A DNA stretch of 46,947 nt, taken from contig JAJYCJ010000014.1 in NCBI GenBank assembly GCA_021778515.1, positions 1-46,947 of the forward strand, given 5' to 3'. Each line of letters starts with the position of its first letter. Position 1 is the first letter of the stretch. The notes below the pieces were generated by a model. It worked only from the letters and a program-made list of their open reading frames with translations. It had not been told where the DNA came from and did no database searches. The stretch comes from Acidobacteriota bacterium. Its GTDB lineage: Bacteria; Acidobacteriota; UBA4820; DSQY01. A program made the translations under genes and the position numbers. This document shows positions 17,748 to 21,823 of this stretch, in pieces.

Positions 17748-18212
17748 ATGGCCAGTCGGACCGACAAGGTGTTGCTCTACGCGCTCCTTACGCTGATCCT
17801 GTTGGGTGGGCTCTGTGCCTGCTGCCTCTTCGCCGCCATCTTCACCCCACTCCGCTTCTGGACCCACGGTGGAGCTCCGGAGGCAGCCAAGTCCTATCTG
17901 CGCAACAATCCGGTCGTCATGGCCCAGATCGGTAAGGTCACCGGTTTCGGCTGGTTCCCCAGCGGCTCCGTGAGCGATGTGGACGGGCGGGGCAAAGCCC
18001 ATCTCGTCTTTGCCCTCAAGGGCACCAAGGGCGAAGGGCGCGCCGTCCTGGATCTGGAGAAGAAGCCGGATGCCAACTGGAAAGTCGTTGCCGCCCGTCT
18101 CTACGTCGGGGGAAAGGAGTTCATCCTCCAGGAGCCCCCGCTTGGAAGCCAGCCGACGCCTCCTCTCCCTGGAAGCAAGTCCAAACAGGACTCGGACGGG
18201 TACAACACCTGA
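17748..18212 (+). CDS. Coa1/Tim21-like membrane-anchored protein
   Basis: A 154-residue protein with one N-terminal membrane helix (VLLYALLTLILLGGLCACCL) followed by a soluble domain. The pattern FGWFPSGSVSDVDGRGKAHLVFALKGTKG, then VLDLEKK and WKVVAARLYV, resembles the Coa1 domain found in cytochrome oxidase assembly factors and bacterial homologues of unknown role. The ATG at 17748 has GGGGAGG six bases upstream; the GTG at 17733 lies within that site. The C-terminal tail is Pro/Ser-rich. The function is not established. Confidence 0.65.
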   Translation: MASRTDKVLLYALLTLILLGGLCACCLFAAIFTPLRFWTHGGAPEAAKSYLRNNPVVMAQIGKVTGFGWFPSGSVSDVDGRGKAHLVFALKGTKGEGRAVLDLEKKPDANWKVVAARLYVGGKEFILQEPPLGSQPTPPLPGSKSKQDSDGYNT

Positions 18213-18263
18213 TCCGAACGTCCGCTCATCGCCGTCGTCCGATTTCAAGATTCTTGCGGATGC

Positions 18264-18281
18264 CCTCGGCCGGGGCCGAGG
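18264..18281. terminator. Hairpin between convergent genes, candidate bidirectional terminator
   Basis: CCTCGGCC and GGCCGAGG form a perfect 8-bp inverted repeat with two bases between, in the 108-base gap between the convergent Coa1-like and MglA genes. Neither side has a T-run, so any termination would be of a non-classical kind. Confidence 0.35.
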
Positions 18282-18320
18282 CACGGTTCTGGCGGATTCG
18301 GGGATCGACCGGCTGATCGA

Positions 18321-19343
18321 TCAGTCTTCGAGATCCAGGAAAAGGCGAAGCCTGTAGCGGCGACCTTCCAGCTCGACGGGGATATCGAGGGGCACGCCGG
18401 GGAGCAAGTGGACCCGGGAAGGGGCCTCCATGGGCATCTCCTCGGGAATGGCGACATCCGCGCCGCTTCCCAACTCCGCCTCCGGCACCTGGGCGGCGCG
18501 TGGAGTCCCTGTAGTTCCAAAGGGCGAATCCGCGCGGAATACCTCCTCGAACAGGAGCTCGGCGGAATCCTCCACGGCGGAGGCGAGGAGCGGATCCAGT
18601 GGCCCGTCCCGCTTCTCGGCTCCCAGCGCGTTCTCGGGGAGAAAGTCGCCAAGTCCCGCGGGACTGCCGTCCAGAGGGCCGGTGCCCGAAACCTCTCCCC
18701 ATGGCCCTCCGAGGGGCAGCGGCGAGGACGGGGCCTCCATGCGCGGAACGCCCGGCAGCGACTGCGCCAGAAGGGTCCGCAGCACCAGGGAGGTGATGGA
18801 CTTGAGCGTGTCCTCAACCCCCACGCCTTCGCTGGCGATCGCTTCGAAGAACGGGCGATTGGAGGGATTCAGTTCGCGGTCGAGCTCTTCCAGACTCAGG
18901 ATGTCCTGAAGATCCCTCTTGTTGTACTGAATCACCATGGGCGTGGAATCGGGATCCAGCCCGTTGTCCTGGAGGTGCTCGTGGAGCTGCATGAGGGACT
19001 GGAGGTTGGCTTCGCGCATCCTTCTCTGGCTGTCGGCCACGAAGATGACCCCGTCGGCCCCCTTGAGAACCTTGCGTCGGGTACCTTCATAGAAGACCTG
19101 GCCGGGGACGGTGTAGAGCTGAACGCGCAGCTTGTGGCCCTGTACGGTCCCCAATTCCAACGGGAGGAAATCGAAGAAGATGGTGCGGTCCGCATCCGTG
19201 GACAGGGTGAGGAGCTGGCCTCGCTGGCTCTCGTCCATGTTGTCGTACACGAATTTGATGTTGCTCGTCTTGCCGCCCAGGCCGGGGCCATAGTAAACGA
19301 TCTTGGACGTGAGCTCCCGGGTCGTGCGGTTGATGAGCGCCAT
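18321..19343 (-). CDS. MglA-type small Ras-like GTPase with 140-residue C-terminal extension
   Basis: Residues 1-196 are an MglA GTPase: P-loop YYGPGLGGKTSN, TVPGQVFYEGTR in place of the usual DxxG (typical of MglA), DGVIFVADSQ, and NKRD for guanine specificity. MglA sets cell polarity and motility direction in myxobacteria and has wide homologues. The usual length is about 195; here a further 144 residues follow, first Pro/Gly-rich and acidic, then ending in a short strand-rich block (VPLDIPVELEGRRYRLRLF). No MglB/roadblock partner is in the window. It follows the STAS gene by 18 bases in the same operon. Confidence 0.9.
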   Translation of the reverse strand: MALINRTTRELTSKIVYYGPGLGGKTSNIKFVYDNMDESQRGQLLTLSTDADRTIFFDFLPLELGTVQGHKLRVQLYTVPGQVFYEGTRRKVLKGADGVIFVADSQRRMREANLQSLMQLHEHLQDNGLDPDSTPMVIQYNKRDLQDILSLEELDRELNPSNRPFFEAIASEGVGVEDTLKSITSLVLRTLLAQSLPGVPRMEAPSSPLPLGGPWGEVSGTGPLDGSPAGLGDFLPENALGAEKRDGPLDPLLASAVEDSAELLFEEVFRADSPFGTTGTPRAAQVPEAELGSGADVAIPEEMPMEAPSRVHLLPGVPLDIPVELEGRRYRLRLFLDLED

Positions 19344-19361
19344 CGGCCCCCCCTGTCCGAG

Positions 19362-19709
19362 TCACGAAAACATGTCTTCGAGGGCTTTCTCTTCCGAATC
19401 GTAGATCCTGATGATCTCGTCCAGACGGGTGAGGCGCATGAGCTTCCGGATGGTCTCGTTGGGCCTCACCAGCTTGAGGCGCTTCCCGTTGTCCTCGAAG
19501 CGCGCCAGGTACCCCACCACCTCCCCCAAGCCCGTGGAGTCCATGTAGTTGATGTTTTCCAGGTTGAGGATCACTCCCTCGACGCCCTCCTCGCCCAGGA
19601 GCTTGGCCAGCTCCTGGCTGAGTTGGCCGGCCGACTGCCCCAGCGTCACCTCTCCCGTGACGTCCAGAATGATCACGCTGTTGTCCAGCACCTTCTTCAC
19701 GATCCTCAC
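19362..19709 (-). CDS. STAS-domain anti-sigma-factor-antagonist-like protein
   Basis: A 115-residue single STAS domain: an N-terminal beta strand, then INYMDSTGLGEVVGYLARF, which holds the Ser that is phosphorylated in SpoIIAA/RsbV-type proteins, and a C-terminal helix. Start is a GTG overlapping the upstream stop (GTGA). No cognate kinase or phosphatase is in the window, so it may act in a partner-switching system encoded elsewhere or directly with the adjacent MglA-like GTPase. Confidence 0.92.
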   Translation of the reverse strand: MRIVKKVLDNSVIILDVTGEVTLGQSAGQLSQELAKLLGEEGVEGVILNLENINYMDSTGLGEVVGYLARFEDNGKRLKLVRPNETIRKLMRLTRLDEIIRIYDSEEKALEDMFS

Positions 19710-20425
19710 GGCGAGCCGCCCGCATCCCCCGCCCTGTCGAGGGAGAACAGACCCGTGATGGGCTGGCCCGAGGCGATCTCATAGCTGAACCAGGATCCCC
19801 GAACGCTCTTCTGGTCACTGGAGAGCGTGCCGTCCAGTCGCCCCATCTTGCCGAACTTGGCGTCGATCCGTTCGAGGAAAAGCTGGTTGTTGATGAAGGT
19901 GCCCTGGAGGCTGCCGGCCTGGCCGTTGTCCAGCGTGTAGTCGCCGGTCAAGAGCGTGCCGTTCTGGGAGAGGTACACGTCGCCGTGAGTGCCGGCCGGC
20001 ATGAGCACGAGGGTCCAATGGCCATCGAGCACCTGTCGGGCCTCCTGGAGATTGGTGCGAAGCTTCTGGATCTCGCCCTGAAGAACCGTCAGCTCGAGGT
20101 AGCCGTCGTGAAGCGAACGCAGAAGATCGAGCCTCTCCGTCTCCAGGCTCTGGCGGCGGGTGGCGTTGCGCAACAGCGCCTCCGCCCGGTCCGCGTTCTT
20201 CGCATCCGTTTCGGAGGCGGCCTGCTCGTCCGAAGACATCAGGTCCTTGATCTGCGAATCGAGCTGGGCAAGGCCCCTCCACTTGGCCGCCATCAACGCC
20301 TGCTGCGAGGTCTGCATGGCTTCCAGCGCGGCCAGCCGCATTTTCTGGATATCCCTTCCCCCGTCCGCGGCGAGCGCGCACACGCCTATGCCCACCGCTA
20401 GCAGAACTGGCAGTCTCTTGATCAT
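19706..20425 (-). CDS. Exported coiled-coil hypothetical protein
   Basis: A 239-residue protein with a signal peptide (MIKRLPVLLAVGIGVCALA, cleavage after ALA), a long helical region with coiled-coil character (about residues 25-120, rich in Ala, Gln, Leu, Glu) and a beta-rich C-terminal domain with GHWTLVLMP, GDYTLDNGQAGSLQGTFINN and GRLDGTLSSDQ. It is probably periplasmic. The ATG at 20425 has GGAG six bases upstream and a predicted transcript start just ahead; the ATG at 20437 lacks a ribosome site. It heads an operon with the STAS and MglA genes. I do not recognise a family. Confidence 0.75.
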   Translation of the reverse strand: MIKRLPVLLAVGIGVCALAADGGRDIQKMRLAALEAMQTSQQALMAAKWRGLAQLDSQIKDLMSSDEQAASETDAKNADRAEALLRNATRRQSLETERLDLLRSLHDGYLELTVLQGEIQKLRTNLQEARQVLDGHWTLVLMPAGTHGDVYLSQNGTLLTGDYTLDNGQAGSLQGTFINNQLFLERIDAKFGKMGRLDGTLSSDQKSVRGSWFSYEIASGQPITGLFSLDRAGDAGGSP

Positions 20426-20443
20426 GGCCGTCTCCATGGTGCG

Positions 20444-20472
20444 AAGATAACATAGGGACATCACCTCGGCAA
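20444..20472 (-). promoter_or_regulatory. Promoter of the coiled-coil/STAS/MglA operon
   Basis: On the minus strand, TTGCCG (20472-20467) and TATCTT (20449-20444) are 17 bases apart. Transcription near 20437 leaves a leader of about 12 bases before the ATG at 20425. Confidence 0.5.
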
Positions 20473-20557
20473 GTTCGCCCCAGCGGCCCTCCGGCCCGGA
20501 GACTCGATCGGGCGCCTCCATCCTGGGATGTGCTAGTGTTGAGCGCGGAGGGGTGGG

Positions 20558-21823
20558 ATGGCGAAGGAACGGGCACTGCTCGTCGGATTGGTCCTGCAAA
20601 ACATGCCTTTGCACCGGGTCGAGGAGTACCTGGACGAACTGGCCTCACTGGTGGACACGGCCGGGGGGCTGGTGGTGCGGCGAGAGGTCCAGTCGCGGGA
20701 GCATCCCGATCCCGCCACCTTCGTCGGGCGCGGCAAGGCCGAGGAGCTGGGAAGGCTCTGCGTTGCCGAAGGGATCAAGCTCGTGGTGTTCGACGACGAT
20801 CTGACGCCCGCTCAGGTCCGGAACCTGGAGAAGGCCGTGGGCGTCAGGGTGACGGACCGGACGGGCGTCATTCTCGACATTTTCGCCCGCCGAGCACGGA
20901 CTCGCGAGGCCAAAACCCAGGTGGAGCTCGCTCAGTACACCTACCTCCTGCCACGCCTGACCCGCGCATGGACGCACCTATCCAGGCAGGCCGGAGGTAT
21001 CGGCACGAGGGGCGTGGGCGAAACGCAGCTCGAAACGGACCGCCGGGTGATCCGCCGCCGGATCGCCGTTCTCACCCGCGATCTGCGGCGTATTGCCGAT
21101 CAGCGCGAGGTCCAGCGAAGGAGCCGCGAAGAGACCTTCGAGGTGGCTTTGGTGGGCTACACAAACGTGGGCAAATCCTCCCTCATGAACAGCCTGACGG
21201 CGGCGCACGTGGCCGTGGAGGACCGGCTCTTCTCCACCCTGGACACCACCTTCCGGAGGATGCCGTCGGACCGGGCCGGCCTCCCGGTCGTGCTCATCGA
21301 CACTGTGGGTCTCGTGCGAAAGCTGCCCCATCACCTGGTCGCCTCCTTTCGTTCCACCCTGGAGCAGGCGAGCGAGGCCGACCTGATTCTGCACGTGGTG
21401 GATGTCAGCCACCCGTCCTTCGAGGAGCAGGCCGTCACCACCCTGGAGGTCCTCGCGGACCTCGGAATGGACAAGATTCCCCTCTTGACCGTGTTGAACA
21501 AGGTGGACTGCACCGGCGAAGGCGTGCTCGCGCGCGCGGGCAGCCTCTACCCGGATTCCGTAGCGGTCTCCGCGACCACCGGGGAGGGCCTCGACAAACT
21601 GCGTGAGGCGGTATCCGCGGCGGCCCGCCGCGCCACGACGGGCCGGACCCTCTTCGTCCGGTACGAGGCCTGGCCGCAATTCGTCACCTTGAGAACCGGT
21701 TACCGCACCCTAAGGGAGCACTACGAAAAAGACGGCGTGACCGTCGTATTGCGCGCCGGCGAGGAGGAGGTGGCCGAACTCGCTGCCCGCCTGGGGATCC
21801 CCGCCGGAGTCCAAGAGACTTAG
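20558..21823 (+). CDS. hflX: HflX, ribosome-associated GTPase
   Basis: HflX is a GTPase that splits or rescues stalled ribosomes, mainly under stress. The 421-residue protein has the N-terminal HflX domain (ATFVGRGKAEEL, VVFDDDLTPAQVRNLE), the GIGTRGVGETQLE-type linker (GGIGTRGVGETQLETDRR), and the G domain: GYTNVGKSSL (G1), IDTVGLVRKLPHHL (G3) and NKVD (G4). The ATG follows GGAGGGGTGGG. It is divergent from the coiled-coil operon and stands alone before the phosphate transport pair. Confidence 0.95.
   Translation: MAKERALLVGLVLQNMPLHRVEEYLDELASLVDTAGGLVVRREVQSREHPDPATFVGRGKAEELGRLCVAEGIKLVVFDDDLTPAQVRNLEKAVGVRVTDRTGVILDIFARRARTREAKTQVELAQYTYLLPRLTRAWTHLSRQAGGIGTRGVGETQLETDRRVIRRRIAVLTRDLRRIADQREVQRRSREETFEVALVGYTNVGKSSLMNSLTAAHVAVEDRLFSTLDTTFRRMPSDRAGLPVVLIDTVGLVRKLPHHLVASFRSTLEQASEADLILHVVDVSHPSFEEQAVTTLEVLADLGMDKIPLLTVLNKVDCTGEGVLARAGSLYPDSVAVSATTGEGLDKLREAVSAAARRATTGRTLFVRYEAWPQFVTLRTGYRTLREHYEKDGVTVVLRAGEEEVAELAARLGIPAGVQET

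Follow-up and report, generated by a model that had tools for sequence, protein, structure and literature searches.

A Tailed MglA-Family GTPase, a STAS Protein and an Exported Protein Encoded by a Conserved Gene Trio within an Acidobacterial Order

Introduction

How is an MglA-family GTPase controlled when the gene beside it encodes a STAS protein instead of MglB? This question is raised by a locus in an Acidobacteriota genome, found in a window of 46,947 nucleotides (the whole stretch of DNA that was analyzed; contig JAJYCJ010000014.1), where genes for an exported protein, a STAS protein and a GTPase with a C-terminal tail follow one another. A first-pass annotation, made from the sequence of the window, had read these genes as a possible variant of a polarity or signaling module. 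In the open-access literature that was examined, no description of a tailed MglA class or of an MglA-STAS operon was recognized. Were the STAS protein to control the small GTPase, a single operon would bring partner switching together with a Ras-like polarity switch. The wider finding, a class of tailed MglAs in this phylum that stands apart from mglB, is considered to be worth more than the three-gene unit alone.

The Three-Gene Unit and Its Conservation

The coordinates, strand, order and spacing of the three genes (Table 1) are as first annotated: the exported-protein and STAS genes overlap in the four bases GTGA (19,706–19,709), and 18 bases (19,344–19,361) separate the STAS gene from the GTPase gene. 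The promoter that the genes had been proposed to share was not recovered, as a sigma-70 scan of positions 18,000–20,700 returned none, with 0.2 expected, and scans for promoters and terminators around the unit gave no signal above chance. In the source genome, the unit stands alone, because the upstream neighbor hflX is divergent and the downstream gene, which has a weak Coa1 match in Pfam, is convergent. On the plus strand, an open frame of 458 codons (18,408–19,784) runs opposite the genes for the GTPase and the STAS protein, and is probably a by-product of the high G+C content at codon position 3.

Table 1. Features of the three-gene unit, in positions of the window.
Feature	Position	Strand	Basis
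Exported protein gene, 239 aa	19,706–20,425	minus	No Pfam or NCBIfam family; AF2 model
STAS protein gene, 115 aa, SpoIIAA/RsbV type	19,362–19,709	minus	PF01740, TIGR00377
MglA-family GTPase gene with C-terminal tail, 340 aa	18,321–19,343	minus	Pfam, PDB match, G motifs
GTPase core, residues 1–194	18,762–19,343	minus	Match to solved Myxococcus MglA
GTPase tail linker, residues about 195–308	18,420–18,761	minus	Predicted disordered; AF2 pLDDT below 50 for 196–308
GTPase C-terminal strand block, residues 309–340	18,324–18,419	minus	AF2 hairpin, predicted strands 319–325 and 328–334

The three genes are a conserved unit of one acidobacterial order. The exported protein was sought in 149 genomes, including the source genome, and was found in 27, of which 11 belong to the same order and 16 lie outside it. 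Within the order, 11 of the 13 genomes searched (source genome included) carry all three genes, with identical order and strand in every case; searches of the remaining two genomes, 64% and 88% complete, found no copy of any of them. Loss of linkage in close relatives had been set beforehand as the result that would speak against a unit; the linkage is kept. In family f1, the genes lie beside hflX and/or Coa1/mutY-side genes in six of the eight genomes that carry them and elsewhere, in different surroundings, in the two genomes of genus g3; in family f2, they follow infB-DUF503-rbfA-truB in 3/3 (Pfam names from single representatives in both families). Since the genes remain intact across three different genomic settings, they are regarded as a true unit. 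In f2, the unit begins 30–50 bases past the upstream gene, which Pfam identifies as truB in the single case tested, and transcription there may therefore come from further upstream. The junction of the exported-protein and STAS genes is a 4-base overlap in eight of the 11 loci and a gap of 21–50 bases in three, and the gap between the STAS and mglA genes ranges from 0 to 72. Nine of the 11 loci also occur in named records, each of which is a metagenome assembly.

In comparison with a same-genus relative (one pair), dN/dS was 0.07 for the GTPase core, 0.11 for the STAS protein, 0.12 for the exported protein and 0.63 for the tail linker. The strand block differed by five changes (two synonymous and three nonsynonymous), which are too few to judge.

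The GTPase Core and Its Tail

Residues 1–191 of the GTPase align without gaps to the solved MglA of Myxococcus xanthus (E 4e-63), and the Ras and Arf families of Pfam are matched at 26–28 bits, just above the cut-off. The G motifs are GPGLGGKT, DRT, TVPGQ and NKRD. The reference survey of Ras-like GTPases in bacteria defines MglA Group 1 by TVPGQ together with an Arg that adjoins the Thr of switch I (PMC4316618). All 11 MglAs of the unit have this intrinsic Arg, within DRT, as well as TVPGQ (G3) and NKxD (G4, here NKRD). The protein exceeds the single-domain range of 150–240 aa by its 340 aa, and this mismatch comes from a survey filter rather than from biology, because the defining survey left out sequences longer than 240 aa; tailed MglAs thereby fell outside its analysis (PMC4316618).

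Several known systems can be compared. The GTPase of the MglA-MglB module, known from Myxococcus, Thermus and Bdellovibrio, shares the core, the intrinsic Arg by the switch I Thr, TVPGQ and NKxD, but the GTPase described here differs in its tail of about 145 residues, in switch II residues that set it apart from the mglB-linked MglAs of the phylum, and in having a STAS and an exported protein as neighbors. No mglB was found beside mglA at any of the 11 loci, which places the unit outside the MglA-MglB module. SofG of M. xanthus is likewise an orphan MglA homolog without a coupled MglB, but is 239 aa long according to PMC4316618. The actinobacterial conservon (Cvn) is also an operon built on an MglA-family GTPase, but its histidine kinase, its MglB homolog and its Group 2 GTPase with GTPGQ (PMC4316618) have no counterpart in the unit.

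The tail starts at about residue 195, immediately following the final helix of the modeled core. Its two terminal strands are predicted as a hairpin with an AF2 pLDDT of 76–78, and the tail with a strand-rich end, as first noticed in one sequence, shows the same pattern at the C end of 11/11 MglAs of the unit. The core was poorly modeled by AF2 (10 rows, low pLDDT). The placement of the hairpin on the core in this model was set aside, as it is unusable at this pLDDT.

A similar strand block occurs at the C-terminus of many members of a second acidobacterial group of tailed MglAs (34 tree rows), which spans the phylum and is here called der-linked. In this group, too, no adjoining mglB was found, but in 19 of the 34 the gene directly upstream belongs to a single family, identified as Der by Pfam in three members tested, and no STAS or exported-protein gene was found adjoining. 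A profile built from the 11 blocks of the unit themselves scored 24.2 against twelve blocks of the der-linked group, compared with a best of 11.4 in 60 column shuffles. The comparison with a third type, named after contig C110, gave 13.4 for the blocks of the unit, above the shuffle maximum, and 9.3 for the der-linked blocks, and coiled-coil tails of the C88 type gave 6.3 and 5.5, respectively. In searches of single tails, the der-linked profile beat all 50 whole-tail shuffles in four of the 11 tails of the unit (3/11 against end-only shuffles), in 9/16 further der-linked tails, in 3/16 of the C110 type and in 0/10 of the coiled-coil C88 type. From these profiles, a common origin of the two blocks appears likely, but is not proven, because amphipathic strands can look alike.

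Tailed MglA and MglB in Acidobacteriota

The distribution of tails was surveyed with 134 of the 150 matches listed in one search and 30 of the 31 listed in a second, together 164 frames. The 16 listed rows that were left out stood near the bottom, and 14 of them are frames of at least 693 aa. Five open or cut frames were dropped, leaving 159 complete frames, which are not independent, as some genomes are close relatives. Genes for MglB were sought with a profile from the source genome's own MglB in about 1–2.5 kb on each side for most frames, and in less at contig ends; because of this seed and this limit to the flanks, a divergent or distant roadblock gene would escape.

Among the 159 complete frames surveyed from the matches listed, 57 are untailed (at most 15 extra residues) and 102 are tailed (at least 95 extra residues, and at least 480 in six of them, one of which is the kinase fusion on contig C150 of the source genome). 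Of the untailed genes surveyed, 55 lie beside mglB, the exceptions being L199, at a contig end, and L241, whereas none of the 102 tailed genes does. The GTPase of the unit thus belongs to a tailed class for which no adjoining mglB was found in the genomes surveyed. A tail unique to the source genome had been named as a result that would count against the module, and tails proved to be common elsewhere. This exclusion is no rule for all bacteria, as table 1 of PMC4316618 gives 404 of 488 MglA-clade sequences as coupled to MglB, 390 among the 449 small ones, so that, in this table, 14 of the 39 long ones are also coupled. Since tail and mglB exclude each other (0/102 against 55/57 of the surveyed frames among the matches listed), switching in orphan MglAs becomes directly testable.

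A STAS gene adjoins MglA in 11 of the 102 tailed frames surveyed among the matches listed, all of them copies of the unit, and the other 91 have neither STAS nor mglB adjoining by the profiles used. The search of MglA neighborhoods for STAS genes, which had been suggested as a check, therefore found the pairing in the unit and nowhere else among the 159 frames. The further claim, that the STAS protein holds the partner position of MglB, stands in part: the partner arrangement is unusual, but most tailed genes have neither partner, and the source genome keeps an ordinary untailed mglB-mglA pair on contig C152, so that the STAS protein is no genome-wide substitute for MglB. As a general partner of tailed MglA, the STAS protein was rejected on the same count of 91 genes without an adjoining STAS (by the profile of the unit's STAS protein, which a divergent STAS could escape).

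A second, weaker roadblock (LC7) gene was observed in the source genome (G000) on contig C40 (21,154–21,420), a contig on which no MglA match was found. This gene could serve tailed MglAs in trans.

The two classes also differ in residues that follow TVPGQ, i.e., in switch II. Position 88 is Thr in all 96 frames of the unit and other tailed genes and Ser in 56/57 untailed ones, and position 92 is Val in 95/96 and Ile in 56/57, respectively. In addition, position 109 is Arg in 57/57 untailed frames and in 3/96 tailed ones. In nine frames with at least 480 extra residues, three of them cut, position 88 is Thr in eight and position 92 is Val in nine. At the level of sequence, these class-specific switch II residues suggest a changed partner surface; shared ancestry alone could also fix them, because the tailed and untailed classes largely coincide with clades. 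In the tree, whose bootstrap had not settled, all but one of the 57 untailed rows group in a single clade (100/99), and the MglAs of the unit form another (100/98), next to the coiled-coil-tailed clade (fork 94/83). Another 34 tailed rows form a weakly supported group (84/73).

In an alternative reading, the tailed GTPase would be self-contained: the tail takes the place of MglB, with the hairpin adding a strand to the MglA sheet or docking to a scaffold, and the STAS protein is only co-expressed. The exclusion was found mostly without a STAS gene, and the strand block resembles that of the der-linked group, which agrees with this explanation. As described in PMC11016934, Myxococcus MglB pairs its N-terminal strand with strand beta0 of MglA, lodges its C-terminal helix in a pocket by helix alpha5 and has its dimer face at switch I. 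As the tail starts past the last core helix, an element in cis might reach these contact places. However, many tails have a coiled coil or a different domain at their end instead of the hairpin, the position of the hairpin relative to the core in the AF2 model is not usable, long MglAs coupled to MglB are among those counted in table 1 of PMC4316618, and the STAS gene is retained beside the GTPase gene in all 11 genomes with the unit. This alternative survives best of those considered and is nevertheless doubtful. A switch in which the STAS protein regulates the GTPase is tentatively preferred.

The STAS Protein and the Kinase Question

The STAS protein matches PF01740 with 59.5 bits, above the Pfam cut-off, and TIGR00377 with 71.4 bits against an NCBIfam cut-off of 53.45, and its nearest solved relatives are TM1442 and SpoIIAA. 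It shares with SpoIIAA/RsbV and TM1442 the fold family and the conserved Ser in the DS-x-GLG motif, and differs from them in its linkage to a GTPase and in the absence of a kinase match on its contig. Ser58 lies within D57-S58-T59-G60, and the phosphorylatable Ser that had been read from one sequence is intact throughout, DSTG being present in 11/11 rows of the unit and in 10/10 rows of a further alignment. An identity as MlaB was not found, the NCBIfam equivalog scoring 19.8 bits against a cut-off of 90.

In the 11 genomes with the unit, its STAS protein is a single copy at 59% identity or more, and other STAS matches reach at most 32% (at most 41% across all 23 genomes searched). Of 69 STAS relatives in genome contigs, 60 have no relative of MglA or of the exported protein within 8 kb on each side, or less at contig ends, which also speaks against a general pairing of STAS with tailed MglA; 14 of these 60 have a nuoA-type neighbor family in common (Pfam from one).

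Two further STAS matches and one strong RsbW-type ATPase were found in the source genome, all of them on contigs other than that of the unit. A cognate HATPase_c_2 kinase gene was sought beside the STAS gene, and none of the 19 PF13581 matches in this genome lies on that contig; nor was a kinase matched on the contig of the unit in any of the 11 genomes. An RsbW-type kinase was matched in 11 of the 13 genomes of the order, and in 10 of these 11 one match lies close to a different STAS gene. In G006 (86% complete), which carries the unit, no such kinase was matched. As a separate observation, the RsbW-type matches at G001:C14, G002:C114 and G005:C361 are reported with internal TGA and TAA, one each.

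An ordinary anti-anti-sigma switch would fit the family assignment, the nearest solved relatives and the RsbW-type gene of the source genome; in it, the STAS protein would regulate an anti-sigma kinase, and the GTPase and the exported protein would be envelope genes under shared transcription. This is unlikely, since no kinase was matched on any of the 11 contigs of the unit and one match lies near a different STAS gene in 10 of the 11 genomes with a kinase match, and a plain sigma regulator would hardly need a GTPase as a traveling companion. The same lack of a kinase match on the contig, the position of kinase matches near a different STAS gene and the lack of a match in G006 also weaken the preferred reading, in which the STAS protein acts on the GTPase.

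The Exported Protein

The exported protein has an N-terminus that by eye resembles a Sec-type signal. No Pfam or NCBIfam family was found. The AF2 model (mean pLDDT 82.8, pTM 0.51, alignment of 9 rows) predicts a helical hairpin at residues 24–130, followed by an eight-stranded C-terminal barrel at residues 135–231. The protein had been described as an exported coiled-coil protein; its export and helical part are upheld, but it is more than a coiled coil, as the model ends in a barrel like those of avidins and calycins. In Foldseek, the barrel resembles avidins and other calycin-like barrels (best E 2.2e-4), and VIA gives Z of 12.0–13.7 in the best 50 rows listed, which are mostly avidins and also designed barrels and others. 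Generic helical proteins also match the helical part with similar Z, and these matches carry little weight. The protein is thus predicted to carry the eight-stranded barrel of the avidin/calycin fold, in which ligand binding is frequent. No sequence link to the avidin family was found, either as a Pfam family or as a PDB sequence match to the barrel, and a PDB search with the profile of the exported protein gave weak matches only (best E 0.039). A BFVD search with the model gave one match (E 5.5e-4) to an uncharacterized phage protein.

In the 16 genomes outside the order, the relatives of the exported protein share 23–30% identity, and no STAS or MglA relative was found at their loci (up to 1.5 kb on each side). 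A gene of one FtsX/MacB-permease cluster lies nearby in 10 of the 16, and these loci commonly have genes for an ABC ATPase, a CDP-alcohol phosphatidyltransferase, a semialdehyde dehydrogenase and a ClpB-like protein (each Pfam name being taken from one representative). At L049, the ABC and ClpB-like genes occur with no called permease, at L057 the phosphatidyltransferase is the only one of these genes, and in L054, L055, L056 and L058 none of them was called, by a simple gene caller that missed some genes, including several copies of the exported-protein gene. An envelope role is favored, because distant relatives often sit among phospholipid-synthesis and Lol-type transporter genes, and is weakened, because it is based on the neighbors of such distant relatives of one of the three genes and 6/16 have no called permease-cluster gene.

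A Possible Switch at the Envelope

The simplest reading of the unit is a switch in which the STAS protein would be the cytoplasmic regulator of a process at the envelope. From gene linkage only, we infer that the STAS protein regulates the GTPase. The GTPase would act in the cytoplasm as the switch of an envelope process at a defined site, such as the delivery of lipids or lipoproteins, and the terminal hairpin, held on its flexible tail, may dock the GTPase either to a partner or to the GTPase core itself. An RsbW-type kinase whose gene lies elsewhere would phosphorylate Ser58 of the STAS protein, which could act as a dedicated regulator in trans that binds or releases either the GTPase or the tail. 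In the same envelope process, the exported protein may be a periplasmic reporter or client. The step that is specific to the order is the joining of the STAS protein and the exported barrel protein to the tailed GTPase.

Taken as a whole path, a conserved unit on a tailed, MglB-independent MglA that forms a STAS-regulated switch for an envelope process is possible, and is put forward tentatively; it is weakened because tailed MglAs elsewhere manage without a linked STAS gene. A more extended form is rather unlikely, namely a trans-envelope switch in which MglA is under a STAS phospho-switch in place of a roadblock GAP and is joined to an exported barrel, within a tailed class that has abandoned MglB for a cis element at the tail end. 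The motility-polarity module as in Myxococcus, which had been the first reading, agrees with the gap-free alignment of the core but is very unlikely, as the four flanking genes tested by Pfam include no motility genes, the relatives of the exported protein often lie among envelope genes, and the untailed mglB-mglA pair would be the likelier candidate for a polarity role.

Other MglA Genes in the Genomes Examined

Further MglA genes were observed in the source genome, G000. On contig C150 (L062:2175-4238), MglA is fused to a histidine kinase (HisKA and HATPase_c by Pfam), with a response-regulator gene adjoining, and MglA matches within frames some 700 aa long recur in relatives. On contig C88 (L059:5764-7143), an MglA with a coiled-coil-like tail end lies between genes for an NtrC-type regulator and undecaprenyl diphosphate synthase, and in the clade of this type the regulator gene of that cluster is upstream in 10/14 rows. 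On contig C110 (L060:6240-7385), a tailed MglA follows a DUF2520 gene, an arrangement that is kept in relatives of the order; in eight other rows of this clade, one gene family follows (LysM/transglycosylase in the one tested). In addition, L240 (G005, contig C124) is an untailed MglA of an f1 genome that lies on a zero-length branch with genomes of family f23, and this contig is perhaps foreign to the G005 assembly.
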